Positions 1-15,111 of a stretch of 64,000 nucleotides of DNA are shown here, one piece after another. The number at the start of each line of letters is the position of its first letter. The first letter of the stretch is position 1. The notes under the pieces were generated by a model. It saw only the letters and a program-made list of their open reading frames with translations, ran no database searches and was not told the DNA's origin. The stretch is from Eubacterium sp. 14-2. Its GTDB lineage: Bacteria > Bacillota > Clostridia > Lachnospirales > Lachnospiraceae. Position numbers and translations under genes: made by a program. The stretch lies in assembly GCF_000403845.2 (NCBI RefSeq), contig NZ_KE159568.1, positions 1,309,400-1,373,399 of the forward strand, written 5' to 3'.

Positions 1-1346
1 TTGGGCCGGTTGGTATCCACTACCACCACCACGCTCCGGTAATTTACAAGCTCCAGAGCTCTCTCACTTCTCACAAACATATCTGCAGGGTAGCCTTTGT
101 CCTCTCCGAAGCACTCCTTCATGGGACGCAGGGATGAGGTCACGTCATCTAACACAATATGGGCCTTTTTCCCCAGAACCTGTGCCGCACAGTAAATACC
201 GATGGCTGCTCCGAACGCATCCATATCGCTGATACTGTGCCCCATAATAAAGACTTCTTCTCTGCTTTCAAAAATTTCCCGCAGTGCATGGGCCTTTACC
301 CTGGCTTTTACACGGGTCATTTTTTCCACCTGTCTGGATTTGCCGCCAAAATAGGAAATCTTTTCCCCTTCTTTCACCACAACCTGGTCGCCGCCCCGGC
401 CCAGAGCCAGATCTATGGCCATACGGGAATATTCGTACTTCTGGTTGTAGCTGTTGCCGCTGACGCCCACACCGATACTCAGGGTCACCGCCATTTCATT
501 TCCTACCTTAATGGTCTTCACATCCTCCAGAATACTGAATTTGTCTTCTGTTAGTTCTTCCAGATATTTTTGCTTGAATGCCACAAAATATTTATCTTTT
601 TCAATTTTTTTGATGATGCTGTCCCGCTCGGAAAAATATTTGCTGACTTTCCGGTCTACCAGCGCCACCAGAAGGGACCTCTTTACTTCTTCAATACTCT
701 CCAGGGCTTCTTCATAATTATCAATATAAATCAGAGCAGATACAAGCTGCTGTTCCCGATTTTCCTGAATGTGCTGATGGAGCTCTGTCTCATCAAAGAG
801 ATAGAAAGGTATCAGGAACTGACTGGCCTCCTCCACTTCAATCAGGCTATTCCCGTCTTCCGGGGCATCGAAATACATTTTTCCCACGCTTACCCGATAA
901 ATCCGCTCTTTCCATTTTACCTGTATACTGTCGTTATGTTCTTCCCTGTCCAGAAGTTCTCGCGTTATGGACGGGAAAATAGTGGTTATGGACTTGTGGT
1001 AATCCTTGTCCTTTTCTGTGATACGGGAAAATGTTTCATTCATCCACAGAATCTTGCTGTTGTAATCCAGCAGCGCATAGGGAATCTCAAACTCGTCCAG
1101 CAGCCTTTTCTGTACGGTTCCGTACTGGGTGGCAAAGCTGATGACCTCATTGCGAATCATGGATTTGTTCACCATGTAGATTCCAAGTACCACCAGAAAA
1201 TATATCACTGCAAATACGGACACGCAAAAACCTGCTTTCCGGTCAATAAAATACAGCGGTATATTCATCAATACAATTAATATGGTCAATACCAGCGGCC
1301 AGTACATGTAATTTAACTGACCTCCGGGGTGATTTTTTTTCTTCAT
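1..1346 (-). CDS. gdpP: GdpP/YybT-type cyclic-di-AMP phosphodiesterase, 3' part missing at window edge
   Basis: GdpP hydrolyses the second messenger c-di-AMP at the membrane and so affects potassium and osmotic balance, cell-wall stress and beta-lactam tolerance. Reading the minus strand from ATG at 1346 (AGGAAA ribosome site seven bases upstream) gives two N-terminal membrane segments (about residues 14-33 and 40-57), a PAS-like region, a degenerate GGDEF region (the SIGVGVSG stretch) and the start of a DHH phosphoesterase domain. MGHSISDMDAFGAAIGIY carries the metal-binding Asp pair, and VVVDTNRP near the edge matches the DHH-family DTxRP motif. About 448 residues are visible of the roughly 650-680 usual for the family; the DHHA1 part lies outside. 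It is divergent in function from the XrtG operon that ends just upstream, and a terminator separates them. Confidence 0.93.
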   Translation of the reverse strand, partial: MKKKNHPGGQLNYMYWPLVLTILIVLMNIPLYFIDRKAGFCVSVFAVIYFLVVLGIYMVNKSMIRNEVISFATQYGTVQKRLLDEFEIPYALLDYNSKILWMNETFSRITEKDKDYHKSITTIFPSITRELLDREEHNDSIQVKWKERIYRVSVGKMYFDAPEDGNSLIEVEEASQFLIPFYLFDETELHQHIQENREQQLVSALIYIDNYEEALESIEEVKRSLLVALVDRKVSKYFSERDSIIKKIEKDKYFVAFKQKYLEELTEDKFSILEDVKTIKVGNEMAVTLSIGVGVSGNSYNQKYEYSRMAIDLALGRGGDQVVVKEGEKISYFGGKSRQVEKMTRVKARVKAHALREIFESREEVFIMGHSISDMDAFGAAIGIYCAAQVLGKKAHIVLDDVTSSLRPMKECFGEDKGYPADMFVRSERALELVNYRSVVVVVDTNRP

Positions 1347-1556
1347 CTGATTTCCTGCCTTTTATGATTTAAAATAGAGTTTTCTTCCTGTACAGCAGCT
1401 GATGTGCACGGTACAGTATATTTCTATTTACACTCAGGTCTCCTCCTCCCTGGACATTATACCACATCTGCAGGAGTTGTTACAACACTTTTCATTTGCG
1501 GTGGGTCAGGGCAGCTTACGCAGCATGCCGAACCTGCGGCGCTTTGGCAATTTACC

Positions 1557-1585
1557 GAAATAAAAGAGCTGCCCTTTGGCAGCCC
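1557..1585 (-). terminator. Terminator at the end of the XrtG operon
   Basis: On the minus strand a GGCTGCC/GGCAGC stem with a short loop is followed by CTCTTTTATTT, 15-45 bases after the stop of the last operon gene. The rest of 1347-1600 holds no gene that I can support. Confidence 0.7.
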
Positions 1586-1600
1586 TTTCCAATACATTTT

Positions 1601-3751
1601 TTACCGATTAGCCAGATATTCCTGCAGAATATAATAAGACTTCTTCAGCCTTTCCCGATATGTGGGCATTACCCACTCCTCCCAGAAATAAGACTCCTTT
1701 ACTCCGTCAATGGCAAATTTAATATCTGAAATATGTTCATAGGTGATTTCATCATTTGCATAGAGATTCGCAATGCGCATCTTGCTGTTTGGCTTTGAAA
1801 TATTCAGCATCAGCCAGGGAATCCGCACCTCCGTCACGTTCCCTTTTATGCAGAAATCCGCACGGGAGTTGTAATCCGGAGATTTTGGGTCTGCATTTCC
1901 ATGCCGCAGCTTTCCTGTCTCTGTCTGCTCTGTATCTACCAGAGTTCCGTCTGTTAAAAGCACCGGACGGTTCAGCATAAGGTTAATGGGCACAAAGCGG
2001 TTGGTATCCGGCGCAGCATAGCCTTCCTGCACTTTAAGCACCTCGCTGGAAGCATATAAACCGGTGGTATACAGCCAGTAGTTCACATCATAATAAGGAT
2101 CTACCTGAAGGCGGCTTTCCTCCTCCCCTTTAATATCAAGGGCAAAATCCGCTCCATCGTATTCTCCATTTCCCTGATTGTCAATGGTATCCATGGTAAT
2201 ACGAATATTATCATTATTGCCCCGGATCATCAGATAAACATATGCTTCGTCGCTTCTCACAAACAGTTCCGTGCCTCCGCTTTCCAGAAGAGGCCGCTCG
2301 CTGGCCCATTCTCCGTCATCCCCGTCTACGGTGCAGACAGGCGCCTGCCCCGGATCAAAGGAAAGAAGACCGAAAAACTGTTCGCTGGTCTGAACGTCAC
2401 ACCAGTAAGGCCTTGCCTCTCCATCCGTATAATCCATGGTATTCCAGGTTCTCTTAAACCACTCGTCCTGCCAGATAAACACACAGGCCCCGGCACATCC
2501 CGTATCTGTAATATCTTTCAGCATGGACACAATGGCATTGCCCTGTTCCACCTCTGTCAGACCTCCCTGATTAAAACCTGCATCACGGGCCAGATGAGTG
2601 ATTCCGCGGGAAGCCGGCACACCAAACTCGGAAATCACCACCGGCATGGTATGATATGTATTCAGATCAGTGAGATAATGCTTATACGGGTTCTGAGGTT
2701 CGTCCGCCAGAAGCTCCGGCGCATACCGCATCATTTCCGGATAATAGGGATATACGTGATAAGAAGTAAACAGTCCTGCCTTAAATTCCGGTTTTGCTTT
2801 AATATGCTCAGCATCCACCGGAACCGCATCCTCCATTTCCGGATTCGGCTCACCCGGATGAGAAAGAGGGTCCGTGGTCACCCAGTTTGCAAAGGCTGTG
2901 GGATGCTGCATTTTATAATTCTCTGTTTCATAAGCGATGCAGGCTTCCATTCCTGACGCCAGAAATACTTCAAAGGGCGTGGCTGCTTCCGTATAGAGGT
3001 ATGTTCCGTCAAAAACATTTTTATCCGGATGATTTTCATTTGTATCAATAACAAAATCCGGCTGCCACTCAATCCCCAGAATCCATCCGCACAAATACTG
3101 TGACACATCTGCTGTATAAGTACCGCTGGCATTTCCCGGAACCGGGTCAATTACTGCATTTCCATGCACCACGTCCACAATGGTTCTGCACATTTCCACC
3201 CAGTCCCTGGCAATTTTCTCATTTTCCCCGTATGCATCACAGATATTGCTGATGTCCTCTTCGTTATTGTACACTCCCTGCATAAAGTAAAGAGGTTTCT
3301 CTGCCCCAGCATTGTATTCTGCCAGAGCCTCATAGAATTCCGGCATGAGAATCGTATAGACACGAATCATATCTGCATGCATCTCACTGATTTGCCGGAA
3401 CCATCTCTTATAATCGTCTTTTGTAATGGCAAATTCCCCTGGAAATGCTCCCGGCTTTCCTGCTCCCACGTTTACACCCACCGGAAAAATATCCTGCCAG
3501 GTACCGTCCGCACCGTATATCTGAAATTTTTTCTCATTTGTCTGAAACAGATAGCTTATGCCCTCTTCCGTATACACAGGCAGCACCGGGGTATCCGCTT
3601 TCCGGGTTTCTGCTTCCGGCGTCTGATTTTCTTCCTGCAAAGGCTCTGTCTCAACAGGCTCCTGCTGTCTGTCCAACGTACACCCGGAGCACACTCCTGC
3701 TGCCATCGCAGCAATCAGAGCCGCAGACAGCCAGTTTTTAAATTTTTTCAT
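1601..3751 (-). CDS. Glycoside-hydrolase-like lipoprotein of the XrtG operon
   Basis: The start is placed at 3751 (MKKFKNWLSAALIAAMAAG...), not at an earlier in-frame ATG, because this gives a lipoprotein signal with the lipobox VCSGC and a GAAAGGA ribosome site. The protein has 716 residues. The first half looks like a TIM-barrel glycosidase of the GH2/GH5 kind: GILGIEW-type strand (possible acid/base Glu), SYHVYPYYPEM, VISEFGVPAS (possible nucleophile Glu) and FIWQDEWFKRTW. The second half contains VDGDDGEW followed by beta-rich sequence ending in a membrane-free C terminus, and resembles the IDG...DW modules of the operon's surface protein. Polysaccharide synthesis operons often carry such an extracytoplasmic hydrolase for trimming or release, and I infer that role here. 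The substrate is unknown. It is the last gene of the operon, 43 bases after the PTPS-like gene. Confidence 0.7.
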   Translation of the reverse strand: MKKFKNWLSAALIAAMAAGVCSGCTLDRQQEPVETEPLQEENQTPEAETRKADTPVLPVYTEEGISYLFQTNEKKFQIYGADGTWQDIFPVGVNVGAGKPGAFPGEFAITKDDYKRWFRQISEMHADMIRVYTILMPEFYEALAEYNAGAEKPLYFMQGVYNNEEDISNICDAYGENEKIARDWVEMCRTIVDVVHGNAVIDPVPGNASGTYTADVSQYLCGWILGIEWQPDFVIDTNENHPDKNVFDGTYLYTEAATPFEVFLASGMEACIAYETENYKMQHPTAFANWVTTDPLSHPGEPNPEMEDAVPVDAEHIKAKPEFKAGLFTSYHVYPYYPEMMRYAPELLADEPQNPYKHYLTDLNTYHTMPVVISEFGVPASRGITHLARDAGFNQGGLTEVEQGNAIVSMLKDITDTGCAGACVFIWQDEWFKRTWNTMDYTDGEARPYWCDVQTSEQFFGLLSFDPGQAPVCTVDGDDGEWASERPLLESGGTELFVRSDEAYVYLMIRGNNDNIRITMDTIDNQGNGEYDGADFALDIKGEEESRLQVDPYYDVNYWLYTTGLYASSEVLKVQEGYAAPDTNRFVPINLMLNRPVLLTDGTLVDTEQTETGKLRHGNADPKSPDYNSRADFCIKGNVTEVRIPWLMLNISKPNSKMRIANLYANDEITYEHISDIKFAIDGVKESYFWEEWVMPTYRERLKKSYYILQEYLANR

Positions 3752-3794
3752 TTTCCAATCTGTCCTTTCACCATATCGCTGTTTCGGTACAGAA

Positions 3795-4277
3795 TTACCA
3801 CTTTCTGCTGTTTTCACCCATAATCCGGTCCACCACATATTCCACCACCCCGGAAATCTGCTGATTCTGCATTTTTCCTATCTGATCAATAAATTCCGGT
3901 TCATTTCGATGACTGACAATATAACTTCGGGTAGGCGTCTCGCTGCCCTCCAGGGAAACCAGTTCGCCTCCATGCTCCCGCAGCAGGGCCTGCAGATCAT
4001 CATTAAAGTGATCCGTCACATTTTCAATAGTGGGGACAATAATATCAAAAGGTTCAATGGTATTTAAAATCTGATTCTGATACTTTTCCAGATACTGTTC
4101 AATCAGATTTTCAAAGGTGCGGAACTCCACAAATTCATCGCCGGCAACCACAATGGTAATCACAAATTCCCAGGTATGAGGATGCGTCTGCCCCTGTTTC
4201 CCGTTGATAATAATGTAATGGTTCATATTCAGATAAGATTTTAAACGATATTCCCGGTATAACCTTTCTTTCCTCAC
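3795..4277 (-). CDS. 6-pyruvoyl-tetrahydropterin-synthase-related protein (exosortase G-associated)
   Basis: A 160-residue protein of the PTPS/QueD fold family. It starts with GTG at 4277, which overlaps the stop of the upstream gene (GTGA). The three zinc-ligand histidines of PTPS enzymes appear to be kept: H20 in LNMNHY, and H32 and H34 in THPHTW. The catalytic cysteine that normally precedes the HxH motif is absent (GKQGQTHPH), so a classic pterin or queuosine-precursor reaction is unlikely. A 6-pyruvoyl-tetrahydropterin-synthase-related domain is a known companion of XrtG in Gram-positive bacteria. Its function is not known. No folate or queuosine gene is nearby. A second, shorter paralogue opens the same operon at 12041-12394. 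Confidence 0.8.
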   Translation of the reverse strand: MRKERLYREYRLKSYLNMNHYIIINGKQGQTHPHTWEFVITIVVAGDEFVEFRTFENLIEQYLEKYQNQILNTIEPFDIIVPTIENVTDHFNDDLQALLREHGGELVSLEGSETPTRSYIVSHRNEPEFIDQIGKMQNQQISGVVEYVVDRIMGENSRKW

Positions 4278-5332
4278 GCACCAGTCACCGCCTTCCAGAA
4301 TGTATCAAACTGTGATTTATAACTGTTCATATTGTCTTCGCAATAATGCTCTGCCAGGCCATGTACATCCCAGTTTTCCAGAGACTCTATAATCCTGCTG
4401 CTGACGCTTTTCTCATACTGGACAAAAATCAGCAGCACCTGATTCTCACCCATGGAAAAACGCAGCACATTATTGTCCAGCACAATCTGCATATGTTCAA
4501 AAAATTCATCTCTGGCTTCCCTGGACTCTGTCTCAAACGCTGCAAAATGCAGAGGATAAGCGCCTTTTTTATCCAGAGTTTCCAGAAATTCATCCAGCAC
4601 GCTGCTTTTAAATACATGCTTGCTGGCGCTGAAGGCATATTCCCGCTTCAGCTGTTCATCCAGAAGTTCAATCTGCTGATTCTGCCAGACCACCCGTTCC
4701 TCCTGCCGGTCAATGTAGAGGCTCTGTCTGGTAATTCTCTTTGACATAATCATACTCAGGATAATCAGAAGAGCCAGCACGATAGACAGAATGATAATAA
4801 TGGCATTTCTGCACTCCAGTAAAACATTATCCTCCAGAATTACCCGGTCATAAGTCAGCAGGCAGATCCGGTACTGTTCTCCCTGCCATTCAAAAATCAT
4901 ACCTGACGCAATAAAACGATCATTGTCCAGATAAATAATCCGGTGTCCCACCTGATTAACGCCCAGACTGTTCATAAATGCAGAAGCAGTCTCCGTGGCA
5001 TAGTAAGTACCGTCATGAAAGCCCTTGTAACGATTTGTTTCCGTAGCGCTCTTTACAAAGAGAATGGAATCCCCCTTGCTCAGTGTCCAGTATCTGCTGG
5101 CTGTGGAATCCAGAGAACTGATAATATCTGTAATGTCCTCATCCGTTCCCTCATTATCCAGACGATTAATCTGCTCCAGAATAATCTTCACATATCCGTC
5201 CTGTTCCCCGCCGTAAATCTCCAGAAATCTGGTCTCATAATTATTAAGCTGATAAACAATAAACACATCCGCCGCCATGGCAAAAAACACCACAATCACC
5301 GTCAGAATGAAAAAATTAAATTTATGTTTCAT
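4274..5332 (-). CDS. Membrane signalling-type protein with extracytoplasmic sensor, XrtG operon
   Basis: 352 residues with a membrane segment at about 7-27, an outside domain of about 145 residues, and a second membrane segment at about 176-195 (AIIIILSIVLALLIILSMIM). A short coiled stretch (RQEERVVWQNQQIELLDEQLKREY) leads to a cytoplasmic domain of about 130 residues. This layout is that of a bacterial transmembrane sensor. The cytoplasmic part, with FSMGENQVLLIFV, is reminiscent of a GGDEF-type fold whose signature loop has been lost; that is an inference of low certainty. If right, it would sense or relay rather than make c-di-GMP, as receptor proteins of other exopolysaccharide systems do. 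It lies 13 bases after the glycosyltransferase gene and overlaps the next gene by four bases. Confidence 0.6.
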   Translation of the reverse strand: MKHKFNFFILTVIVVFFAMAADVFIVYQLNNYETRFLEIYGGEQDGYVKIILEQINRLDNEGTDEDITDIISSLDSTASRYWTLSKGDSILFVKSATETNRYKGFHDGTYYATETASAFMNSLGVNQVGHRIIYLDNDRFIASGMIFEWQGEQYRICLLTYDRVILEDNVLLECRNAIIIILSIVLALLIILSMIMSKRITRQSLYIDRQEERVVWQNQQIELLDEQLKREYAFSASKHVFKSSVLDEFLETLDKKGAYPLHFAAFETESREARDEFFEHMQIVLDNNVLRFSMGENQVLLIFVQYEKSVSSRIIESLENWDVHGLAEHYCEDNMNSYKSQFDTFWKAVTGA

Positions 5333-5345
5333 AAGCTCCGCTCAC

Positions 5346-6710
5346 CTACTCATAATTTACTGCTTTCCGCATTTTCTGTAATAAATTCAGGGGTTTCCGG
5401 GCCTCTGTCTTTAATTCTTCCTCAAAATCCTTCCGCTCATCCGTCAGGGTCCGTGTTTTCCATGCACTGTCCGTATTGATGCTGTTAATCACACCTGCAA
5501 AGCGGATGAAGAAGATAATGAAATTGAAAAATGGAAGAAGCGGCACCACATACCAGTGCTTTCGATAATATTTCTTCAGATTGTCAAATTCTTTCAGGAA
5601 TCCCACGGTGGAAAAATAATATAAATATCCGCTGATAATATAAAGCAGGAAAATAATTCCTGTGGAAACCAGAATTACTGTCGGTGAATAATTCATGCAC
5701 ATCAGGCAAATCAGCGCCAGATACCAGATCAGTCTGGGAAAGGCAAAAGTATGGTCATACATCAGTGTACGGACCATTACATTGGTAAACATTTTGTGGA
5801 CTCTGAGATCTTTTTCCAGAAACTGATGGGATACCTCAAGGCTTCCCCTCTGCCACCGCTGCCGCTGGGTATAAAGTTTATTTACCCCTTCAATTGGATC
5901 CACACAGAATATGGCATTCTCACAGATATGCACCTTTATATGCTGCAGATAACGCATCTGAAACGTAATATTGGTATCCTCACAGATGGTATCCGTATTG
6001 TAAAGCTGGGATTTCAGCACAGCTGATTTCCGGAAAGCAGAAAAAGCGCCGGACAGGGTGTAAATAGAATTTGTCTCAGAGGCGTAATTCCGTCCCGCCA
6101 GAAATGCCTGGGCATACTCCATAAATTCCATTTTCCGCAGCAGCCGGGAAAAAATCCCCCTGTATTCCTCAATCATCTCCGGCATGGTAAGAATGGCTCC
6201 CGTCATACAGTCCACATCGGGGCTGGCCTCAAACTTGCGTACCATGTTGGTAATGGCATGAGGCTCAAACTGCCCGTCACTGTCCACATGGATAATATAT
6301 TTTCCATCGGCGTTAAACAGGGCCAGATTCAGAGCGCGGGACTTTCCCTGTCTGGCATTCAGCCACTGCATCAGCAAATCCGGATACAGCTCCTGACATT
6401 TGGTATACACCTGAAAGGAATTGTCTTTTCCCTGGTTATTGACCAGAAAAATCCGCATTTTATCATTGGGATAATCACTCTCGCTGATGGATCTGATACA
6501 TTCCTCCAGGGAATCCTGGGAATTATATACCGGAATAATCAGCGTGATTTCCGGCCAGATTACCGGATCCTCATAATGTCTGGGAAACAGTGTTTTCTTA
6601 ATCAGAATCAGAAAACTTCCCAGTGAAGGAATAATTTCCATCACCAGCGGAATGATAATCCAGGCCGCCCAGAATAAAATTGAATTCAAAAAATTATTTA
6701 TCACTGTCAT
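5346..6710 (-). CDS. Processive family 2 glycosyltransferase (exosortase G-associated)
   Basis: A membrane glycosyltransferase of GT2, 454 residues from ATG 6710, preceded by GTGGGAAG; an earlier in-frame ATG has no ribosome site. Two N-terminal hydrophobic segments are followed by the catalytic domain: LIIPVYNSQDSLEECI, IHVDSDGQ (metal and nucleotide-sugar binding), TLSGAFSAFRKSA, CEDTNITF (catalytic Asp) and QRQRWQRG. The last is the QxxRW motif of processive synthases such as those for cellulose, hyaluronan and poly-N-acetylglucosamine. Several membrane segments follow. It therefore probably polymerises a sugar chain across the membrane. It overlaps the xrtG stop by 17 bases, which implies translational coupling. 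XrtG-associated GT2 proteins are a recognised family; the sugar is not known. Confidence 0.88.
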   Translation of the reverse strand: MTVINNFLNSILFWAAWIIIPLVMEIIPSLGSFLILIKKTLFPRHYEDPVIWPEITLIIPVYNSQDSLEECIRSISESDYPNDKMRIFLVNNQGKDNSFQVYTKCQELYPDLLMQWLNARQGKSRALNLALFNADGKYIIHVDSDGQFEPHAITNMVRKFEASPDVDCMTGAILTMPEMIEEYRGIFSRLLRKMEFMEYAQAFLAGRNYASETNSIYTLSGAFSAFRKSAVLKSQLYNTDTICEDTNITFQMRYLQHIKVHICENAIFCVDPIEGVNKLYTQRQRWQRGSLEVSHQFLEKDLRVHKMFTNVMVRTLMYDHTFAFPRLIWYLALICLMCMNYSPTVILVSTGIIFLLYIISGYLYYFSTVGFLKEFDNLKKYYRKHWYVVPLLPFFNFIIFFIRFAGVINSINTDSAWKTRTLTDERKDFEEELKTEARKPLNLLQKMRKAVNYE

Positions 6711-7293
6711 AACTGAAACTTCCCACTTTCTGCTTGATAATCTGCGGTTTCGTGAACACATAAAAATACAGCATCACCGATAATCCGTAGAATACAAACC
6801 TTCCCACAAAGGTATGGGCGATATAGTACATATCAATTCCGCCAAAATAAATAATCAGGCAGATTACAGTAATACGCAGAGCATTCGCCAGTACCATCCC
6901 AATCACGCCCAGCACCCCGACATAAATCCGTTCATAAACAGTATAGACCTGATAAAACATCAGCAGTGACAGGTAAGCGATAATCTCAATGATTCCGGAG
7001 CACTCGAAATCTATTTTCAGTGAAATGGCGCCTGCGGAAGATTCCACAAAAATAACACCGTATTTATAATGGGCGCTGTAAACCCCGGCAATTTTTCCCG
7101 GAATACTGGCCAGCAGGGCCACAATCCGGGCCAGAGGCTGAGTCAGCACCGGCTGTAAAAAGATCAGCATCAGAATAAAGGCTCCCGCACTTCCAAAAAG
7201 AAAGTGCCAGAAATTCAGTTTGCTTTTTTTCAGTATGTGTAAAATAAACAGCCAGATTATCAGACCGGTCAGTCCCACCGCATATTTTATCAT
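6694..7293 (-). CDS. xrtG: Exosortase family protein XrtG
   Basis: A 199-residue polytopic membrane protein with the exosortase/archaeosortase catalytic triad in order and spacing: Cys98 in DFECSGIIE, Arg140 in NALRIT and His160 in IAHTFVGR, each near a membrane face. Exosortases are membrane transpeptidase-like enzymes that recognise C-terminal sorting tails (a short motif, a membrane segment and basic residues) and cleave or transfer the target. The Gram-positive type is XrtG. Its probable substrate is the surface protein encoded two genes upstream (9772-12003), whose tail has that three-part form. The ATG follows the TAA of the preceding gene without a gap, and the next gene overlaps its 3' end. 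Confidence 0.92.
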   Translation of the reverse strand: MIKYAVGLTGLIIWLFILHILKKSKLNFWHFLFGSAGAFILMLIFLQPVLTQPLARIVALLASIPGKIAGVYSAHYKYGVIFVESSAGAISLKIDFECSGIIEIIAYLSLLMFYQVYTVYERIYVGVLGVIGMVLANALRITVICLIIYFGGIDMYYIAHTFVGRFVFYGLSVMLYFYVFTKPQIIKQKVGSFSYDSDK

Positions 7294-9753
7294 TTATCCC
7301 ACTTCCTTCTCCGGCTGTTCTGTCTGCAGCCGGCGTTTGTGTACTGTATAAATCAGAATAAAAAGAGCTGCTGTCACTGTAACAGCAATCCCCCGGTTCA
7401 GATAAGGATATTTCAGTGAAATCACCGTAGTCCCCGACTTTACATAAGTCAGATGGTTTTTCGAATAAATATCCTGATCTGAGGTAAAACTGTCATGATA
7501 TGCCAGCCCGGTGTTCACATCATCTCTGTCTGCAGTAACGGTAATGCGGTCCGACCCATACTGAACCGTATAAGGTACAATTTCCCGCTCCGGCAGCTCG
7601 TCCGAACTCAAATCCATGGCATGGCTTAACAGTCTTCCTACGCCTTCATCCTCTGTCAGCCCATAATAATAAGTAAGATTCAGGCCAATCATTACAATAT
7701 TTTCATTTTTTACGGTTCCGTAAAAGGGCAGCTCCCACCCTTCATCCTTTACAGTTCCCCATACTTCATCCAGGCCGTCCAGATACACCGTGCTCCACTC
7801 CCGGTATCCATTGGGAAATAAGTCCGTTTCCAGTACCCCCTCTATGGTATCCAGATCCGGATAGCCCTGAGAAAAGGAAACACTGTTGCAGATGGCGCCC
7901 AGAAAACTCTGGTTCTGGCTGCCTCTGTCATCCGGGATTCCGTCCGCGGCTATGACAATATGCACTCCTGCCTCACTTAAATCCGTAATCAGTTTTTCCG
8001 CCGAAGCCTTATCGTCATAAGTAAAACCCGCCAGATAAATCAGCTCATAATCTTTCAATTCTTCAAAGGTAAATTCATTCAGATTAACCCGTTCCGTCTC
8101 TTCCATCACCGGAAACTGTCTGACAATGGAAGGAGCCGCACTGCCGATACCGATGGCTCTGTATTTCGTTATGGTGCCCCAGTTTCCTTCTGCATTCAGC
8201 TTATACAGACGGTAACTGTCGTTATGGGCCGCCATCTGATAGCCCACCCGTTCTGCCGCATGATCCATTTTCTGGAAAGGTGCTTTTGACGTATCTCCTA
8301 TAATATCCAGCTGAACAATCACGGTATCGTTTCCCATTTCCAGGCATCGGTCGAACAGGTAGAGATAATTTCCCTCCTCCAGAGCACGATCAATCTGCTT
8401 TATATTGGTTATGGTGGCCGCAGATTCGTCTGCCGCCCCATACATCCCTGCCACCGGTTCTCCATATCCGGTTACCAGAAATGTGCTCATGGCTCCCAGG
8501 CTGCTTTCGTCCACCAGAGCCAGACGCTGCTCTGTGATTTCCTTTGCCTCTCCCACCAGTGTCTTATCTGACTGATCAGCCAGAATTATTTCCGGCAGCA
8601 GCCCGTTCTGACTGCCCAGAATCAAAGGCAGAGAAGGCAGTGCATCCAGAATCAGCAGTACTGAAAAAAATACAATCCAGCCCTTTTTCAGAGTATCCCA
8701 GACCAGAAAACTGAACAGCACCATACACAATGCCATGGACACCAGCCGCAGCATCAGCAGAACATGTCCTCCCGGCACCCTTACAAAAAGCAGATACAGA
8801 GTCTCAGACGTACAGATTAATATAATAATACCCGTCCAGAAACCAGGCATAGATTTCTTCTTACTTAAAAAGCCTCCAAAAACTGCCAGCAGTAAAACTG
8901 CCAGCCCGAAATACACGTCCACGCACCCTCTCTGAAAACGCGCCGCAGGATTAATGGACAGAAACATGCTCTGGAAAAATTCCTCCATAACCTCCAGGCT
9001 GCTCTCAGAAGCCACTCCTCCTGTTCTGGAGGGAATCAGCCATACGCCGGTGAGAAGAATTCCAAGTGCAAGTGCTATAAATATTTCAACACCTCTGTGC
9101 CAGTCATGACGAATCATTCCGTCAATTACAAAATAAATCAGAAATGCTGCCAGAAGGATTCCTCCATACTGAACATGGCACAGAGAAATAAACGCAAATA
9201 TCAATGACAGTTTTGGCAGGGTATACCAGTGCCTCCACTGGAGATAATCATAAACCCAATATAGCAAAAGGGGCAGAACTGCAATACAGACAGAATGGGG
9301 CAGGTTACCCTCATAAAATAATCCAATCAGATTGTTGGGCATAAAAAACCACAATGCCCCTAAAAATGCTCCAAAATAAGGTCTTTTTACCTTAAAACCA
9401 ACATAAAGCCATGAAACTGCGCCCAGAACGCAGATAAACATGACAAAAACAGGATATCCTCCTATGGGACTGCCGCCGAAAAATTCGCAGGCTGCCAGAA
9501 GATATACCGGGATGGGCGCCAGATAGCGCATCAGCTCCACACCATTATACCAGAGGGGATCAAACAGAGGCCAGAAATTCCCCTCACGAACAGCCTGGTA
9601 CAATACATCTCCCTTGTAGAGATAACTCAGGGTATCCATCCCACTGGGAGAGATACCGCTGTTTTGAACTATATTTGCCACACCATATGCCAGTAACGCA
9701 TAAAGAATGGGCATTAATACAATCAGATAATATGACTTTCTACTGTCTTTCAA
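7294..9753 (-). CDS. Large polytopic membrane protein of the PTPS-related membrane family, XrtG operon
   Basis: 819 residues. About the first 370 hold roughly ten membrane segments, with a first outside loop GMDTLSYLYKGDVLYQAV that contains the Asp-rich start typical of GT-C type lipid-linked sugar transferases. A soluble domain of about 400 residues follows, including ELIYLAGFTYDDKASAEKLI and VHIVIAADGIPDD, a Rossmann-like stretch. A last membrane segment near the C terminus (IAVTVTAALFILIYTVHKRR) is followed by a basic tail. It matches my memory of the Pfam membrane family named for a PTPS-related domain. I infer a glycosyl transfer or export role beside the GT2 enzyme. It starts 18 bases after the surface protein gene and abuts xrtG. 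Confidence 0.68.
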   Translation of the reverse strand: MKDSRKSYYLIVLMPILYALLAYGVANIVQNSGISPSGMDTLSYLYKGDVLYQAVREGNFWPLFDPLWYNGVELMRYLAPIPVYLLAACEFFGGSPIGGYPVFVMFICVLGAVSWLYVGFKVKRPYFGAFLGALWFFMPNNLIGLFYEGNLPHSVCIAVLPLLLYWVYDYLQWRHWYTLPKLSLIFAFISLCHVQYGGILLAAFLIYFVIDGMIRHDWHRGVEIFIALALGILLTGVWLIPSRTGGVASESSLEVMEEFFQSMFLSINPAARFQRGCVDVYFGLAVLLLAVFGGFLSKKKSMPGFWTGIIILICTSETLYLLFVRVPGGHVLLMLRLVSMALCMVLFSFLVWDTLKKGWIVFFSVLLILDALPSLPLILGSQNGLLPEIILADQSDKTLVGEAKEITEQRLALVDESSLGAMSTFLVTGYGEPVAGMYGAADESAATITNIKQIDRALEEGNYLYLFDRCLEMGNDTVIVQLDIIGDTSKAPFQKMDHAAERVGYQMAAHNDSYRLYKLNAEGNWGTITKYRAIGIGSAAPSIVRQFPVMEETERVNLNEFTFEELKDYELIYLAGFTYDDKASAEKLITDLSEAGVHIVIAADGIPDDRGSQNQSFLGAICNSVSFSQGYPDLDTIEGVLETDLFPNGYREWSTVYLDGLDEVWGTVKDEGWELPFYGTVKNENIVMIGLNLTYYYGLTEDEGVGRLLSHAMDLSSDELPEREIVPYTVQYGSDRITVTADRDDVNTGLAYHDSFTSDQDIYSKNHLTYVKSGTTVISLKYPYLNRGIAVTVTAALFILIYTVHKRRLQTEQPEKEVG

Positions 9754-9771
9754 TGCCCATTCCTCCCATAT

Positions 9772-12003
9772 TTATGCAGCTGCGGGCTGCAATTCATTTT
9801 TTTTTCTTTTTTTATACCAGAGTACTATTCCTACTGTGGAGATACAGAGAATTACACCTGCAATCGGTCCGGTAGAAGTACCTGCGGTAAAAATCCACTG
9901 CTGTCCGATTCTTCCAAACTGTGCTGAAATTTCCTTTAAATCTGTTTCGTCAACACCCAGCTTCTGAGCAACCATGGGCAGATCCAGATAAAACTCCATT
10001 TCATCCTTTCCATCTTTTCCCACTGTCATAATCATTTTTCCATACATCAGATCCATCTCGTGAAGGTTGTTGATATTGGCTGAAGTATGCCATGCATCTC
10101 TGGAAGCAATATGGAATTCATATGTACCTTCCGGAAGACCCATCAGCTGAGGATTCCAGTTAATATTTCCGCCTCCGTCCACTGTCACGCACATGGGATA
10201 AAATGCCATCTTCTGATCATAGCTTCCATTCTGTAAATCGCTGCGGCTCTGGTTAAATGCTATGGTAACAGCCGCCGTAAATTCTCCGCCTGCCTCTTCC
10301 AGATGCTGAGGCATGGTTGTCACTACATGACCGTATAATTTTCCATCGCTGGAATAAAGAGCGCCTTTTGCGTCAATCTGATCTTCCTGAGATCCTGCAG
10401 TAGCATACTCAATGGTGCTGTGTCCGTAATCTTCCCAGTCTTCATAATTACCATCATAATTAATTCCGTCAAAAAGATTTTCCAGATTATTTCCGCTGTC
10501 TTCCTGTAAGTTCATAATTCCACTGATGAACGGTTCACCCAGGTAAAGGCCGAAGGAAAGGCTTTCTTCATATTTCGGAAGCTGATCTTTCGGAATAGCC
10601 AGTTCCCATTCATCTCCCACATAAGATACCTGTGCACCGTTGACGCCATTGACTGCCGGCGCAGTTGTCAGCTGAATATCCGTTTCATAACCCAAATCCG
10701 AGGTAATAGCAAATTTACCATTGGAATGGGTACCTGCGCCGGAAGCATTGCTGCCCTTACCGTCTTTAATATAAATGTAAAACCAGTCACCATCATAAAC
10801 TGCTGCAACCTGAGACAGACATTCCTTATGAGCATCATTGGGACAGGAAACCTCTGTCTTTGCCACCGCTGCCCAGTCAGAATAACTGCCATCAATGGTT
10901 ATTCCTCCATAAACTGCCGGAACATCCACCACCACAGAATTACCGTCTACCTGTTCAATATCGCCGGCAGCCACAGAAGTTCCGCCAAACGTAAGGGTAA
11001 ATTCCGGACTCTGGAAATAACTGAGCGGTACTGCAAATTCCACTACATAAGGTCCGGGGTTATTTCCATGAGCACTGTTTTTCACTGCAACATCTGCAGC
11101 CACATTCCCCCAGTAAGCATTTTTCACCAATGTTTCGCCGTTGCCTGCCGTTACGGAAAGAGCGCTGTTCTCACCTGTGGAACCATCCGGATATTCAAAC
11201 TGGAAAACGTTGCCGCTGCCGGCAAATCCATAATCCCATTCCGTTGATGCTGTTCCGGTATAGCTGAAGTAAAGGGTATTTCCATCAGGAGAATATGCAA
11301 CCTTCCAGGAATCCACACCGGATGCACCGGAGGAACGTGAAGTTACTTCTGCCCAGTCAGATAAATCTCCGTCAATCTCAATCCTGCCGCCTACCGTAGT
11401 CAGGCTGTGGGCTGCAACAGCTTCCAGATCTTCCTGGGGTTCATCCTTTTCTTCCGGGGTAACTTTTTTATCATCCTTATCTTTTACATCATCTTTTTTA
11501 TCATCATCCTGATTTTCTCCGGGCTGTTCCTGACCCTCTTCCGGCTGTCCTTCCGCAGGATTCTGTTCGGAATCCGTACTGTCTGCCGGCGGTGTCTGCT
11601 CATTTCCCTGTCCGCCTGTGGTTCCGTCGGAATCCGTACTGCCCGCCGGCGGTGTCTGCTCATTTCCCTGTCCGCCTGTGGCTCCATTGGAATCCGTACT
11701 GTCTGCCGGCGGTGTCTGCTCATTTCCCTGTCCGCCTGTGGTTCCATCAGAATCCGTACTGTCTGCCGGCGGCGTCTGGTCATTTACCTTTCCATCTGCC
11801 GCCCCGGTATCTCCGTTTTCTGTTCCTGTATTTTCCGTTCCGGTTTTACTGTCCGTCTCATTATTGGCGGTTCCGCTTACTTCTTCTTTCTGCTGAGGTA
11901 CCGTACCGCTCACTTCCGCTGCCGAAACCGGCATTCCTGATAAGAGAAGTGACAAAGACATCAGACCTGCCACCGTACCTCTGAAAATCCTTCTGGCTTT
12001 CAT
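9772..12003 (-). CDS. Surface protein with repeat-rich linker, IDG-DW modules and Firmicu-CTERM-like sorting tail
   Basis: The start is at ATG 12003 after GGGAGG; an earlier in-frame ATG lies inside the preceding gene. The protein has 743 residues. A signal peptide (MKARRIFRGTVAGLMSLSLLLSG...VSA) leads to a low-complexity Pro/Thr/Ser/Gly region with a 20-residue tandem repeat, then an acidic and Lys-rich linker (DDDKKDDVKDKDDKK). Three modules each open with an IDG-like motif and DW: RIEIDGDLSDW, GITIDGSYSDW and INYDGNYEDW. They resemble the carbohydrate-binding CBM9/DOMON-like beta-sandwich group. The C terminus reads TSTGPIAG, a hydrophobic stretch VILCISTVGIVLW, then YKKRKK. This fits an exosortase target, and I assign it to the Firmicu-CTERM class. 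No LPxTG motif is present, so it is not a sortase A substrate. It is the likely substrate of XrtG in the same operon. Confidence 0.82.
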   Translation of the reverse strand: MKARRIFRGTVAGLMSLSLLLSGMPVSAAEVSGTVPQQKEEVSGTANNETDSKTGTENTGTENGDTGAADGKVNDQTPPADSTDSDGTTGGQGNEQTPPADSTDSNGATGGQGNEQTPPAGSTDSDGTTGGQGNEQTPPADSTDSEQNPAEGQPEEGQEQPGENQDDDKKDDVKDKDDKKVTPEEKDEPQEDLEAVAAHSLTTVGGRIEIDGDLSDWAEVTSRSSGASGVDSWKVAYSPDGNTLYFSYTGTASTEWDYGFAGSGNVFQFEYPDGSTGENSALSVTAGNGETLVKNAYWGNVAADVAVKNSAHGNNPGPYVVEFAVPLSYFQSPEFTLTFGGTSVAAGDIEQVDGNSVVVDVPAVYGGITIDGSYSDWAAVAKTEVSCPNDAHKECLSQVAAVYDGDWFYIYIKDGKGSNASGAGTHSNGKFAITSDLGYETDIQLTTAPAVNGVNGAQVSYVGDEWELAIPKDQLPKYEESLSFGLYLGEPFISGIMNLQEDSGNNLENLFDGINYDGNYEDWEDYGHSTIEYATAGSQEDQIDAKGALYSSDGKLYGHVVTTMPQHLEEAGGEFTAAVTIAFNQSRSDLQNGSYDQKMAFYPMCVTVDGGGNINWNPQLMGLPEGTYEFHIASRDAWHTSANINNLHEMDLMYGKMIMTVGKDGKDEMEFYLDLPMVAQKLGVDETDLKEISAQFGRIGQQWIFTAGTSTGPIAGVILCISTVGIVLWYKKRKKNELQPAAA
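11571..11798 (-). repeat. 60-bp in-frame tandem repeat in the XrtG surface protein
   Basis: Three near-identical 60-bp units and a partial fourth, each coding for about NEQTPPADSTDSDGTTGGQG. The units differ by a few bases (Ser/Asp, Thr/Ala and Asp/Gly swaps). The repeat length keeps the frame, so copy number can change without breaking the gene. Confidence 0.95.
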
Positions 12004-12040
12004 AAAAAATCCTCCCTTGCAAATGATCATTGACTCCGTG

Positions 12041-12394
12041 TTAAAATGTTTCTTCAACTATCGCATAAATGCGCAGAGGCGTTTCGCTGATTTCAAAACG
12101 GGCAAATTTCCAATGCTGCTCTTCCAATGCGTGTTTCACTTTTCCATAAAACACCTCGCCTAAATGCTCAATGCTGGTATCTCCTTCAAATTCCGGATAT
12201 TCGTTTAAATATTTGTACTGATAAGGCCCAAACACCTCTTCCAGAATGGAGTTCATACTGGCAAACTCCAGAAAGTCTTCCTCCATCTGCCTTGCAACAA
12301 TCTCAATCTCAATCAGATGCTGATGTTTGTGCTCTATCTTCCCGTCAAAACTATGCTGCATACATAAACGATACTTTAAACGATGGTATTTCAT
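12041..12394 (-). CDS. Short 6-pyruvoyl-tetrahydropterin-synthase-like protein, first gene of the XrtG operon
   Basis: 117 residues. It shares the layout of the longer protein at 3795-4277: KYHRLKYRLCMQHSFDG supplies His14, and EHKHQHLIEI supplies His24 and His26 in the HxH position of PTPS/QueD zinc sites. The reactive cysteine usually found just before HxH is missing here too. A conserved-looking C-terminal Glu (ISETPLRIYAIVEE) corresponds to the glutamate that holds the pterin in the family. It is the first gene after the promoter at 12451-12480 and ends 37 bases before the surface protein gene. Two diverged Cys-less PTPS-like proteins in one operon suggests a binding or structural role, perhaps as a pair. 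That is inference. Confidence 0.75.
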   Translation of the reverse strand: MKYHRLKYRLCMQHSFDGKIEHKHQHLIEIEIVARQMEEDFLEFASMNSILEEVFGPYQYKYLNEYPEFEGDTSIEHLGEVFYGKVKHALEEQHWKFARFEISETPLRIYAIVEETF

Positions 12395-12450
12395 CCGATT
12401 CTACCTGCCCATACTCGTAGTTCTGCCTTCTGTCATATGTTCTGGACTAT

Positions 12451-12480
12451 ATTATATCATACGCAAGCAAAATTTTTCAA
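12451..12480 (-). promoter_or_regulatory. Promoter of the XrtG operon
   Basis: On the minus strand TTGAAA (12475-12480) and TATAAT (12451-12456) are separated by 18 bases. Transcription would start about 50 bases before the first gene. No other good promoter is seen within the following 10.7 kb, and the gene gaps are short, so the eight genes are likely one transcript. Confidence 0.7.
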
Positions 12481-12580
12481 TCCCAATATGACTCAAATCT
12501 TTCCTGTTTTTTCAATATTAGTCAGACATTTCCTGCCTTTTGTAAAAAAAGAATGCGTATAACGCCACAGGATTTTCCTG

Positions 12581-12615
12581 TAAAATAAAAAACCAGCCAT
12601 CCCACGATGACTGGT
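12581..12615 (-). terminator. Terminator of the rpsF-ssb-rpsR operon
   Basis: Minus-strand hairpin ACCAGTCAT/ATGGCTGGT (one G-T pair) with loop CGTGGG, followed by TTTTTTATTTT. Confidence 0.9.
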
Positions 12616-12662
12616 CATTTCCGCAAATCCTGTATTCAGACAAAATTCCGATTTTCCGAAAC

Positions 12663-12926
12663 TTAATCTGTAACATAAGGCATTAAGGAGATATGCCTTG
12701 CTCTCTTGATGGCAACGGTAAGGGCTCTCTGATGCTTTGCACAGTTGCCGGTAATTCTTCTGGGAAGGATTTTTCCTCTCTCAGAAATATATCTCTTTAA
12801 CTTGTTGGTATCTTTATAATCAATCACGTTATCTTTTCCACAGAACACGCAAACTTTCTTTCTTCTGCGCATTCCGCCTCTCCGCTTCATGGGAGCATCG
12901 CCTCTGTCTGTTTTATTATAAGCCAT
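12663..12926 (-). CDS. rpsR: 30S ribosomal protein S18
   Basis: 87 residues from ATG 12926 ([10 protein letters not shown]). This start sits eight bases after AGGAGG, while the ATG six bases earlier is too close. S18 binds the 30S platform with S6. It is the zinc-binding form: CVFCGK near residue 24 and a later NCAKHQR supply C-x2-C and C-x2-H ligands, and the core [18 protein letters not shown] is unmistakable. It is the last gene of the rpsF-ssb-rpsR operon, 17 bases after ssb, and has its own terminator. Confidence 0.97.
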
Positions 12927-12943
12927 TTTCATTACCTCCTGTT

Positions 12944-13387
12944 CTAATTAAATGGCAGCTCTTCATCTATCCCGTCAGGAATATTCATAAAACCATCTCC
13001 CACAGCCGCACTGGGGGCGGGTCTTGCGGCCGGCTGATATCCGCCTGCCTGTCCTTCGGACGCAGCTTTGCTCTCTGCAAATTCCTGCTCCTCCACCACC
13101 ACATCTGTGGTATATACTTTCTGTCCGTCCTGATTGGTATAGCTTCCGGTCTGAATCCTTCCGGTTATGGCAATTTTGGTTCCCTTATGAAAATATTTTT
13201 CTGCAAATTCGCCGCTTCTGCCAAAGGCAACACAATTGATAAAATCTGCGGTCTGCTGGTCATTATCACGCTTAAATCTTCTGTCTACAGCCAGTGTATA
13301 TCTTGCAACTGCCGTTGCCTGCTCACCCTGTGAGTAACGGACTTCCGGATCTCTGGTCAGTCTGCCCATCAGTATCACTTTATTCAT
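12944..13387 (-). CDS. ssb: Single-stranded DNA-binding protein
   Basis: 147 residues. The OB-fold domain begins [20 protein letters not shown] and includes [21 protein letters not shown], followed by a Gly/Ala/Pro-rich flexible part and the acidic C-terminal tip [10 protein letters not shown], which recruits repair and replication partners. It lies between rpsF and rpsR, the usual order in Firmicutes, and is co-transcribed with them. It is the housekeeping chromosomal ssb. Confidence 0.97.
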
Positions 13388-13404
13388 CTGATCTCCTCTT
13401 TGTA

Positions 13405-13695
13405 TTACGCTTCATCCTGTCTAACGCATAAGAAACGAAGTACATTGTCCAGAATACGCACACGTTTTTCGATCTCTGCCGGACAATCTGCGTTTGCATC
13501 GAACTGAATAAAGTAGTAGAAACCTTCTCTCATTTTCTGAATTTCGTAAGCTAATCTTTTCTTACCCCATTCATCCACGTTGGTTATCGTACCGCCGAAT
13601 CTGGTAATGTATTCTTTTGCTTTCTCTACCACTGCGGCTCTCTCTTCATCTTCGATTTTTGCATTAACAACAAGCGCTAATTCGTATTTGTTCAT
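13405..13695 (-). CDS. rpsF: 30S ribosomal protein S6
   Basis: 96 residues, the usual length, from ATG 13695 (MNKYELALVVNAKIEDEERA). GGAGGT lies nine bases upstream; an ATG two codons earlier is only three bases from it. VDEWGKKRLAYEIQKMREGFYYFIQFDA is the S6 core. S6 pairs with S18 on the small subunit. It is the first gene of the operon. Its leader holds a likely S6:S18 feedback element. Confidence 0.96.
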   Translation of the reverse strand: MNKYELALVVNAKIEDEERAAVVEKAKEYITRFGGTITNVDEWGKKRLAYEIQKMREGFYYFIQFDANADCPAEIEKRVRILDNVLRFLCVRQDEA

Positions 13696-13704
13696 GCTCA
13701 TCGT

Positions 13705-13745
13705 ACCTCCTTTTGGTCTCCGGCCCTCAGTCTGCGCTGAGAGCA
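13705..13745 (-). promoter_or_regulatory. Candidate S6:S18 autoregulatory leader of rpsF
   Basis: Just before the rpsF ribosome site the minus strand has a CTCAG/CTGAG hairpin followed by GGGCCGGAGACC, which contains CCG. A known leader motif in many bacteria has a stem with a bulged CCG box bound by the S6-S18 complex. The position and the CCG fit, but I have not folded it. Confidence 0.4.
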
Positions 13746-13773
13746 AGGATAAACTGTTATATCACGAATTAAT

Positions 13774-13802
13774 ATCATAACACAACCAAACTTAATTTTC
13801 AA
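13774..13802 (-). promoter_or_regulatory. Promoter of rpsF-ssb-rpsR
   Basis: TTGAAA (13797-13802), 17 bases, TATGAT (13774-13779) on the minus strand. The -35 box overlaps the stop of the upstream hydrolase gene. The predicted leader is about 70 bases. Confidence 0.75.
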
Positions 13803-14832
13803 GAACTTTGTCCAAAAATCTTTCGATTGTTCCATAATATGTATCCGGGTCCTTATCCTGTGTCTGTCCGTGTCCCGCATCCTCCACAATCAGCAGCTCT
13901 TTCGGGCATTCTGCCCCTTCATATAAATCTTCTGCCATCTGAACGGATATCATGGCATCGGAACTTCCATGAATAAACAAAATGGCTATTCGGCTTTTCC
14001 GAACTGCTTCCAGAGCAGAAGCGTCTTTCAGATTGTAGCCGCCCCGCAGCCAAAGCATCAGACAGGCCGAATCCACCAGAGGAAATGGCGGCAGGCCGAA
14101 CCATTCTCTGATTTTCTCCCCGAACATACTGTAAGCATCTGTATAGGAAGAATCAGAAACCACAGCCCGGACATGTCTGGGCAGATCTTTTTCTCCTGCC
14201 ATCATCAGAGCAGCCGCTGCTCCCATGGACTGGCCGTGAAGTATAATCTGTGCCTGACTGTCCTGGGCAATTATATGCTCCAGCCAGAGCATACAGTCAA
14301 AATGGTCTGTCCAGCCCATACCGATAAAGTCTCCCTGGCTTTCCCCCTGACACCGCAAATCCGGCACCACCACATGATAGCCCTGTTGGTGATACCAGAA
14401 GGCAAAGGGATACATTTCTTCTTTCCAGCCCGTATAGCCGTGAAGCAGAAGTACCCAGTTATGGCTCTCCTGTCCGGTCCTTTCCGGCGAATGAGACTTT
14501 TCCTCTGCCGGAAATTCTTCCGCAATCAGCCTGTAACCATCTTCTGTTTCCACAGAAATTTTTCTGTGCTCTGCTGTCTGAAGCCATGCTCTGGTGTCTG
14601 CCAGCGCTGCCTGACGGTTTCCCTGAATGTCCGACGTCTGTACCTGAGCCGCGTAACTTTCTTCCGTAATCCGTTCAAAGGCTTCCAGTTTTTCCATAAA
14701 AGAGGGAACCAGAGCGGCGCTCACCAGAAAATTAACCATAAGGATATAAAGGAACAGCAGCAGGATTATGATAAGGCCTGCCGCTATGACAGTTTTTTTC
14801 CTGTTTTTCTTTTCTTTCGCAAATTTTCTCAT
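13792..14832 (-). CDS. Membrane-anchored alpha/beta hydrolase
   Basis: 346 residues from ATG 14832; a TTG ten codons earlier is possible but has no ribosome site. A basic N terminus and one membrane segment (about 15-40) anchor the protein. The alpha/beta hydrolase domain faces outside: LLLHGYTGWKEE (oxyanion region), nucleophile Ser in HGQSMGAAAA, Asp in IHGSSDAMI and His in EDAGHGQ complete the triad. Proteins of this form (YqkD/YfhR/BAAT-like) act as esterases or peptidase-like enzymes; the substrate is not predictable. The next minus gene upstream is DUF951. The stop codon lies within the rpsF promoter. Confidence 0.82.
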   Translation of the reverse strand: MRKFAKEKKNRKKTVIAAGLIIILLLFLYILMVNFLVSAALVPSFMEKLEAFERITEESYAAQVQTSDIQGNRQAALADTRAWLQTAEHRKISVETEDGYRLIAEEFPAEEKSHSPERTGQESHNWVLLLHGYTGWKEEMYPFAFWYHQQGYHVVVPDLRCQGESQGDFIGMGWTDHFDCMLWLEHIIAQDSQAQIILHGQSMGAAAALMMAGEKDLPRHVRAVVSDSSYTDAYSMFGEKIREWFGLPPFPLVDSACLMLWLRGGYNLKDASALEAVRKSRIAILFIHGSSDAMISVQMAEDLYEGAECPKELLIVEDAGHGQTQDKDPDTYYGTIERFLDKVLEN

Positions 14833-14916
14833 GTTTTTCCGTTCCAGATTATGTGTTTTCAATACATATTATACGGTATCTTACCGCAATTTACATCCGG
14901 AAAAAAATACCTGTTT

Positions 14917-15111
14917 CTATTCGTCTGACTGTTTCCGGATTCCTCTGGTATTCTTCTCCACCAGTTTTCTGGCCATCATCACCTGATGGCCGCAGCCCAG
15001 GCATTTCAGACGAAAATCTGCTCCGATCCGCAGAACCTCCCATTCCTGGCTGCCGCAGGGGTGCTGCTTTTTCAGACGGACGATATCTCCCACTTCAAAT
15101 GGTACTGGCAT
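14917..15111 (-). CDS. DUF951 family small protein
   Basis: 64 residues. It has the family's GDIVRLKKQHPCGSQEWEVLR and ADFRLKCLGCGHQVMMARK. Three cysteines (one in HPCGS, two in CLGC) suggest a small metal-binding or nucleic-acid-linked fold. The family is common and of unknown function in Firmicutes, often near parB, ychF or rpsF, so its position here is typical. It begins 18 bases after the sirtuin stop and is probably co-transcribed with it. Confidence 0.9.
   Translation of the reverse strand: MPVPFEVGDIVRLKKQHPCGSQEWEVLRIGADFRLKCLGCGHQVMMARKLVEKNTRGIRKQSDE

Follow-up and report, generated by a model that had tools for sequence, protein, structure and literature searches.

Several described systems share parts of the locus considered here, the exosortase G (XrtG) island of Eubacterium sp. 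14-2 (contig NZ_KE159568.1; the whole analysed stretch of 64,000 nucleotides, positions 1,309,400 to 1,373,399, is called the window below, and positions are counted from its first letter). For each paper cited, a part of the text serves as the source. In the PEP-CTERM/EpsH system, an exosortase is linked to exopolysaccharide genes, the targets end in a tripartite C-terminal tail, and a genome holds a median of eight such targets (PMC1569441). Archaeosortase A is a membrane enzyme with essential Cys and Arg residues and Arg253 as third residue; the tripartite tail of its target, an archaeal S-layer protein, is processed, and a lipid is then attached (PMC9263693). The nearest worked-out operons seen, Listeria Pss (PMC4125290) and L. 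acidophilus gts (PMC6123363), each combine a GT2 glycosyltransferase with a degenerate cyclic di-GMP (c-di-GMP) protein. In Listeria, the operon pssA-E unites a GT2 close to IcaA with a degenerate GGDEF protein; PssE, for which an I-site receptor role is described, binds c-di-GMP, PssD is given as an ortholog of BcsB, and the text seen names no exosortase (PMC4125290). For XrtG systems themselves, the sole functional mention in the open-access papers searched is a rise of their transcripts in interferon-inducing L. plantarum (PMC12854382), and PMC8951740, which also concerns exosortase G, lists one GT2.

How does the island compare with these systems? It shares with PEP-CTERM/EpsH the exosortase, the putative exopolysaccharide genes and the tripartite tail, but there is essentially one target per XrtG genome. 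As in archaeosortase A, Cys and Arg are found in a membrane enzyme, but in XrtG both His160 and Arg165 are invariant, and the target there is an S-layer protein. With Pss, the island shares a GT2 near IcaA (a likeness between the two GT2 enzymes, PssC and g5, that is one of description only) and a degenerate GGDEF-like protein in one operon, whereas this protein has no I-site, none of the eight island proteins matches BcsB, and XrtG is present. The set of XrtG, Firmicu-CTERM, TIGR03111 and TIGR03112 was reportedly described in a 2012 paper by Haft and co-workers, and in the window all four families exceed the curated NCBIfam cut-offs; the sensor, the lipoprotein barrel, the fusions and the fused Asn98 variant described below are added here to the catalogued NCBIfam set. 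As the sequence-only reading of this DNA had supposed, the open-access papers searched gave no worked-out function for exosortase G, its GT2 or the PTPS-related domain, and it gave neither this architecture nor the fused Asn98 variant, nor an asparagine exosortase, nor Firmicutes exosortases with exopolysaccharide in Lachnospiraceae. The families are already known; the new points are that the PTPS domains are probably dead and occur fused to transferase or sensor, that the sensor is of a degenerate GGDEF-like type, that a phosphoglycerol-transferase-like domain can be joined to the GT2, and that a fused Asn98 variant exists. To our knowledge, exosortases are widespread and the bacterial ones have been little tested; since the system is compact, with essentially a single target in each genome, and nature supplies a control in its fused cysteine-less relatives, it allows a direct test of whether an exosortase serves to sort, to anchor or to build. 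The island would also tie a catalytically dead pterin-enzyme fold to surface-polymer control in gut bacteria.

On balance, we regard the island as probably a synthase-dependent surface-polysaccharide machine, in which the exosortase would process one dedicated subunit that stays at the machine. Its features, all on the minus strand, are the following (g1 to g8 number the genes in reading order):

12451 to 12480, minus strand: promoter-like site, TTGAAA-18-TATAAT with extended -10 (consensus match only, 11 of 12 positions)
12041 to 12394, minus strand: g1, PTPS-like protein of TIGR03112, whose type occurs in other genomes as a fusion with the GT-C protein (TIGR03112 score)
9772 to 12057, likely start near 12003, minus strand: g2, Firmicu-CTERM target with signal peptide, repetitive Thr/Ser/Pro-containing linker and three DGxxxDW motifs at residues 229, 389 and 535 (TIGR04145 score, sequence)
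9772 to 9885, minus strand: tripartite tail of g2, consisting of the AGTSTG motif, a membrane helix and KKRKK (sequence, tail motif in relatives)
7294 to 9753, minus strand: g3, PF10131 membrane protein of the GT-C glycosyltransferase clan (Pfam)
6694 to 7293, minus strand: g4, XrtG with Cys98, Arg140, His160 and Arg165 (TIGR03110 score, alignment)
5346 to 6761, likely start near 6710, minus strand: g5, GT2 of TIGR03111, processive type (TIGR03111 score, motif)
4274 to 5332, minus strand: g6, predicted sensor with membrane helix, outside domain, membrane helix, coiled coil and degenerate GGDEF-like domain (AlphaFold, Foldseek)
3795 to 4277, minus strand: g7, PTPS-like protein of TIGR03112, whose type occurs in other genomes as a fusion with the sensor (TIGR03112 score)
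1601 to 3838, likely start near 3751, minus strand: g8, lipoprotein (Cys53) whose predicted fold is a GH-A-like barrel (Glu257, Glu404), and whose C-terminal part has a weak likeness to the repeats of the target (model, alignment)
about 1557 to 1590, minus strand: intrinsic terminator (folding energy against shuffles)

The three likely starts, all downstream of the longest-frame starts, come from reading the sequence. In the machine that we favour, the GT2 would polymerise a glycan from nucleotide sugars and pass it outward, and the GT-C protein would modify it outside, using a lipid-linked sugar. The sensor would read an outside signal and, together with the PTPS-like domains, tune synthase activity from the cytosolic face. 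The target with its DGxxxDW domains would be exported, Cys98 of XrtG would attack at or near AGTSTG and cut off the membrane tail, and XrtG would hand the new C-terminus to an acceptor, which may be a lipid or a glycan. The DGxxxDW domains would thereby be kept on the membrane beside the machine, holding or guiding the polymer, and the lipoprotein would trim it. What the sequences themselves establish are the families, the order of the genes, their conservation, the fusions and the lost residues.

The comparison with relatives started from a GT2 profile, which found 332 relatives in named genomes, the nearest of them labelled Lachnospiraceae or Eubacterium; the best 80 were fetched as loci L033-L112. 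Sixty of the 80 are long enough (more than 3000 bases before and more than 6500 after XrtG), 19 are cut short, and one (L107) is without XrtG on its short contig. Left out of the counts were the weak XrtG matches L017 (21.4 bits) and L123/L132 (23.6 bits), L001-L016 and L113-L122, which are covered again by L018-L032, the window and L124-L134, and six of L018-L032 already represented in L033-L112. Target, XrtG, GT2, sensor, PTPS-like and GT-C genes are all present in 60 of 60 long-enough loci, so that homologous operons do keep the surface protein; family scores and this recurrence bear out the combination of exosortase G with its own target, GT2 and hydrolase-like lipoprotein that had been proposed from the letters. 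Of 250 genomes of the family, 16 carry XrtG, the window's among them; across the phylum it was found in 13 of 398, nine of these over the cut-off. In distant families the set is reduced to GT-C protein, XrtG, GT2 and, in most, the target domain; two distant loci, L125 and L127, have a g8-type hydrolase nearby.

XrtG scores 176.4 bits against TIGR03110 (NCBIfam cut-off 102.75), and Cys98, Arg140 and His160 are present in 16 of 16 aligned XrtG sequences, the window's included, with Arg165 likewise invariant; the triad proposed for 6694-7293 thus aligns with exosortases. A sequence-based search gave no solved structure for XrtG. The target reaches 120.2 bits with TIGR04145 (Firmicu-CTERM; NCBIfam cut-off 50), and in all 21 XrtG genomes a TIGR04145 protein, over the cut-off in 20, adjoins XrtG or lies one gene off. 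Further TIGR04145 matches are repeats within the same frame, except for one partial match in G066 (G066:C83:9311-9802), which lies in a frame of 1750 amino acids on a contig other than that of XrtG. DGxxxDW is found in 75 of the 76 targets detected in L033-L112 versus one of 963 other open reading frames (ORFs) of at least 200 amino acids, and this single exception adjoins XrtG on its upstream side in L111 and has probably escaped detection as a target. Within their last 75 residues, 70/76 targets carry the tail motif G[TAV]S[TSA], versus 18/986 other ORFs. Within the window, the linker repeats of the target at 11484-11783 are nearly identical and Thr/Ser/Pro-containing, and they give rise to long spurious ORFs in other reading frames.

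In one clade, XrtG is 398-400 amino acids long, and an outside DGxxxDW domain runs straight into its first membrane helix, while the tail of the target is gone. Asn replaces Cys98 in all nine fused loci of this clade (eight genomes), and GT-C protein and GT2 are kept wherever the contig reaches (7/7 each). Altogether, 115 loci were examined, of which L166 repeats L099; among the 114 distinct ones, 104 are unfused with Cys98, nine are fused with Asn98 and one (L101) is fused with Cys, the window's own XrtG (Cys98, separate target) standing outside this count. From this pattern, Cys98 seems to act on the target, and the target to end up close to XrtG. In a subsampled tree, the fused loci form a monophyletic group (local support 0.97) beside unfused Cys relatives. 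Two fused Asn98 loci, L187 and L188 (G936; they hold L177 and L180), stem from a single draft genome, with 95.7% identity along 5351 bases; with the model used, no PTPS domain was detected in their GT-C proteins. The clade also bears on the earlier suggestion of a glycan attached to, or displayed with, the surface protein: display fits, but attachment is unproven and seemingly not obligatory, because here the surface domain has become part of XrtG and Cys98 has given way to Asn, with GT-C protein and GT2 kept.

The fusions could in principle also mean that XrtG serves the synthase chiefly as a structural membrane subunit, permanently partnered by the target in the way that BcsB accompanies BcsA, with proteolysis being secondary. 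The nine loci that have joined the target domain to a Cys98-less XrtG and retained both transferases (wherever the contig reaches) are in line with such a role, as are L124 and L128, where a target-type domain ends the GT-C protein. However, Cys98 is present in all 104 distinct unfused loci and the tail motif in most targets, and as both are kept, processing is apparently selected in unfused loci. We therefore take this structural role seriously but consider it doubtful.

For the synthase itself, g5 scores 617.9 bits against TIGR03111 (cut-off 363.95), and its QRQRW (the QxxRW motif) is invariant in 15 of 15 sequences. The runner-up model, PgaC/IcaA, gives 123.7 bits, below its equivalog cut-off of 422.3, so that this model does not name g5 a poly-beta-1,6-GlcNAc synthase. 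The GT-C protein g3 scores 399.1 bits (cut-off 26.4) against PF10131, a family of the GT-C clan that is related to the protein glycosyltransferases STT3, PMT and TMTC (PMC7801869). This kinship, together with the repetitive Thr/Ser/Pro-containing linker of the window's target, may point to protein glycosylation, in which GT2 and GT-C protein would put the glycan on the linker or the new C-terminus and XrtG would anchor the glycoprotein. Several targets, however, are just 209-245 amino acids long and have no room for such a linker, the GT2 is closest to the processive PgaC/IcaA, and a hydrolase and a phosphoglycerol transferase would suit a free polymer better, which makes protein glycosylation rather unlikely. 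A C-terminal domain resembling phosphoglycerol transferase I/LtaS is found on the GT2 in 13 of the 80 loci L033-L112 (e.g. L108:10004-12880; two were scanned directly, and the other eleven are 43-76% identical to one of those two), its start is visible in a fourteenth, cut copy (L062), and none occurs in the window's eight proteins. Among the 80 loci, this fusion (13) and the g8-type hydrolase (23) never co-occur, which may reflect ancestry only. At L131:9584-11032, XrtG runs into the GT2 in one ORF of 482 amino acids, possibly by a frame error, and at L124:10285-14175 and L128:2013-5915 the GT-C protein ends in an apparent signal peptide, a DGxxxDW domain and a tripartite tail, in a polyprotein-like manner.

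The two PTPS-like proteins score 73.6 and 125.3 bits with TIGR03112 (cut-off 69.35) and 24.7 and 25.1 bits with the QueD model, under its cut-off of 89.25. They are the sole PF01242 matches of the host genome (3.99 Mb, four contigs). Among 291 genomes of the class, TIGR03112 is over its cut-off in ten, nine of which have XrtG, the tenth being an 82% complete draft; of 14 genomes with only sub-cut-off matches, none has XrtG. The zinc-type histidines H20, H32 and H34 of g7 have equivalents in g1. In an alignment of 137 rows of relatives (the L093 domain is split into two of them), the three presumed zinc histidines persist in 135-136 rows, and Glu110 is retained in 122 and replaced in 14; the fused copy of L022 has lost two histidines. 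The catalytic cysteine is missing in g1 and g7, and the loop before HxH is cysteine-free in 137/137 rows, with no dominant residue there. Both had been called Cys-less from the letters, which stands for the catalytic cysteine, but g1 holds Cys11 and is not strictly cysteine-free. A g1-type domain sits on the N-terminus of the GT-C protein in L021, L022, L023, L027 and L030, and in distant loci the PTPS domain is fused in 12 of 15 GT-C ORFs. In L018, L021 and L104 a g7-type domain is fused to the sensor and seems to replace its degenerate GGDEF domain.

A role of g1 and g7 as queuosine or biopterin enzymes was considered and rejected, as the catalytic Cys is missing. The well-kept histidines and Glu110 could still speak for true enzymes with another catalytic residue, which would make a pterin-like cofactor or a sugar precursor. 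Against this, the loop before HxH offers neither cysteine nor any other prevailing residue, Glu110 itself is exchanged in some rows, and fusions to a membrane transferase and to a sensor suit a regulatory or docking role better, so that we judge such an enzymatic function quite unlikely. The PTPS-like domains are probably zinc-binding and catalytically dead, and because they fuse to the membrane transferase and the sensor, they may serve in regulation or docking. Judging from the known chemistry of this fold, one might guess at a guanine- or pterin-type ligand in the retained pocket.

The AlphaFold model of g6 (pLDDT 82, pTM 0.52) has two long helices, each taken as a membrane span, which flank an outside domain; a coiled coil follows, and an alpha/beta domain forms the C-terminus. 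Of the 25 Foldseek matches with E<=1e-3, 24 concern entries that contain GGDEF domains (classed by their titles or by what is generally known of them), and this resemblance of the predicted structure favours the sensor-like character suggested earlier. The GG[DE]EF motif is found in none of the 54 aligned sensor rows (row L104 is misaligned, as it carries a PTPS domain instead); at the I-site, RxxD, g6 reads VLDN at 284-287, and R284 occurs together with D287 in 0/54 rows. Nor is g6 among the 14 PF00990 (GGDEF) matches of the host genome. A cyclase or I-site c-di-GMP receptor was considered for g6 and rejected, as the motifs are absent in 54/54 rows, although the host has these 14 GGDEF matches.

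For g8, Foldseek with the predicted model gave GH157 as closest match (7e-12), followed by GH2 and GH5-like/mannanase barrels, which agrees with the glycosidase-like character guessed in the sequence-only reading. The lipobox cysteine C53 is kept in at least 90% of 19 aligned sequences, and E257 and E404, which we take to be the catalytic pair by analogy with the GH-A clan, are invariant in 19/19. The g8 sequence has no relative among PDB sequences and no Pfam match.

Taken further, one may imagine that XrtG, instead of sending cargo off, installs a glycan-handling subunit in a polysaccharide synthase and itself stays in the machine, that fusion makes the Cys dispensable, which is hence lost while Arg and His remain, and that polysaccharide synthesis is gated by a new class of receptors for guanine or pterin ligands, namely dead PTPS-like domains docked on the GT-C enzyme and on the degenerate GGDEF sensor; as a whole, this picture is speculative and we give it only a small chance. 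A chance neighbourhood of unrelated surface genes is practically negligible: nothing was found in its favour, and it is opposed by the gene content kept in 60/60 long loci, the core kept in distant families and several fusions between members.

A number of observations weigh against the polysaccharide machine with one processed subunit. Since the best 80 of 332 relatives were taken, the sample leans to close relatives and the conservation is mostly one near home; even there, the upstream g1-type gene is missing in 27 of the 60 long loci (present in 33) and the g8-type hydrolase in 40 (present in 20), and in distant loci the sensor was not detected with the models used here. The Asn98 enzymes keep Arg140 (9/9) and His160 (8/8, one copy being truncated), which speaks against a wholly dead site and leaves residual or Asn-based activity possible. 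Because the fused group is monophyletic, fusion and Cys loss count as one evolutionary event, long kept, and the two G936 loci may be one locus assembled twice. In the draft genome of L101, target, tail motif and XrtG form a single ORF with the Cys kept (L101:8194-10065), which may stem from a natural deletion or from misassembly. The unfused L172, L174 and L175, which belong to the same family as most fused loci, showed no DGxxxDW target, with two of the contigs ending nearby. The structural matches are modest, with template modelling (TM) scores of about 0.3 normalised to the query for g8, and for g6 of 0.2-0.4 over the whole length (query-normalised) and about 0.5 when normalised to single GGDEF domains. 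Glycan binding by the DGxxxDW domains is only a guess, as sequence routes gave them no convincing Pfam family match and no solved-structure match. At D40, in the first outside loop of the GT-C protein, where we assume a catalytic role, 23 of 25 sequences are acidic and two have Ala. Finally, co-transcription of the eight genes is what their spacing and the consensus sites would imply.

As to the layout, the eight minus-strand ORFs overlap or are barely spaced and fill 1601-12394, and ORFs, consensus site and folding energy agree with the single packed unit with promoter and terminator that had been described. Six of the eight genes are named over the cut-off by NCBIfam and Pfam, five of these by NCBIfam curated cut-offs, and g6 and g8 reach no family cut-off in either. 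The site at 12480-12451 is top-scoring among 31 such promoter-like sites in 1-15000, and shuffles average 25.4 sites. The terminator (61 nucleotides tested) folds with -24.3 kcal/mol (z -5.3), matched by 0/200 shuffles; a pattern scan of 1-15000 did not report it, probably because its stem absorbs the U run. No riboswitch was found in the leader, as Rfam matched nothing in 1-15000 at the gathering score. The island sits between rpsR and gdpP: upstream are the genes for ribosomal protein S18, SSB and S6, and directly downstream, at 3-1346 on the minus strand, a GdpP-like gene (GdpP GGDEF and DHH domains) runs off the window, with the same neighbour in near relatives. A recently moved island was considered and rejected, as 15 (14 distinct) of 106 fetched loci share rpsR, gdpP or both as flanks with high identity, the flanks being unmatched in the remaining loci; because of the shared flanks, the island has a fixed place in near relatives.

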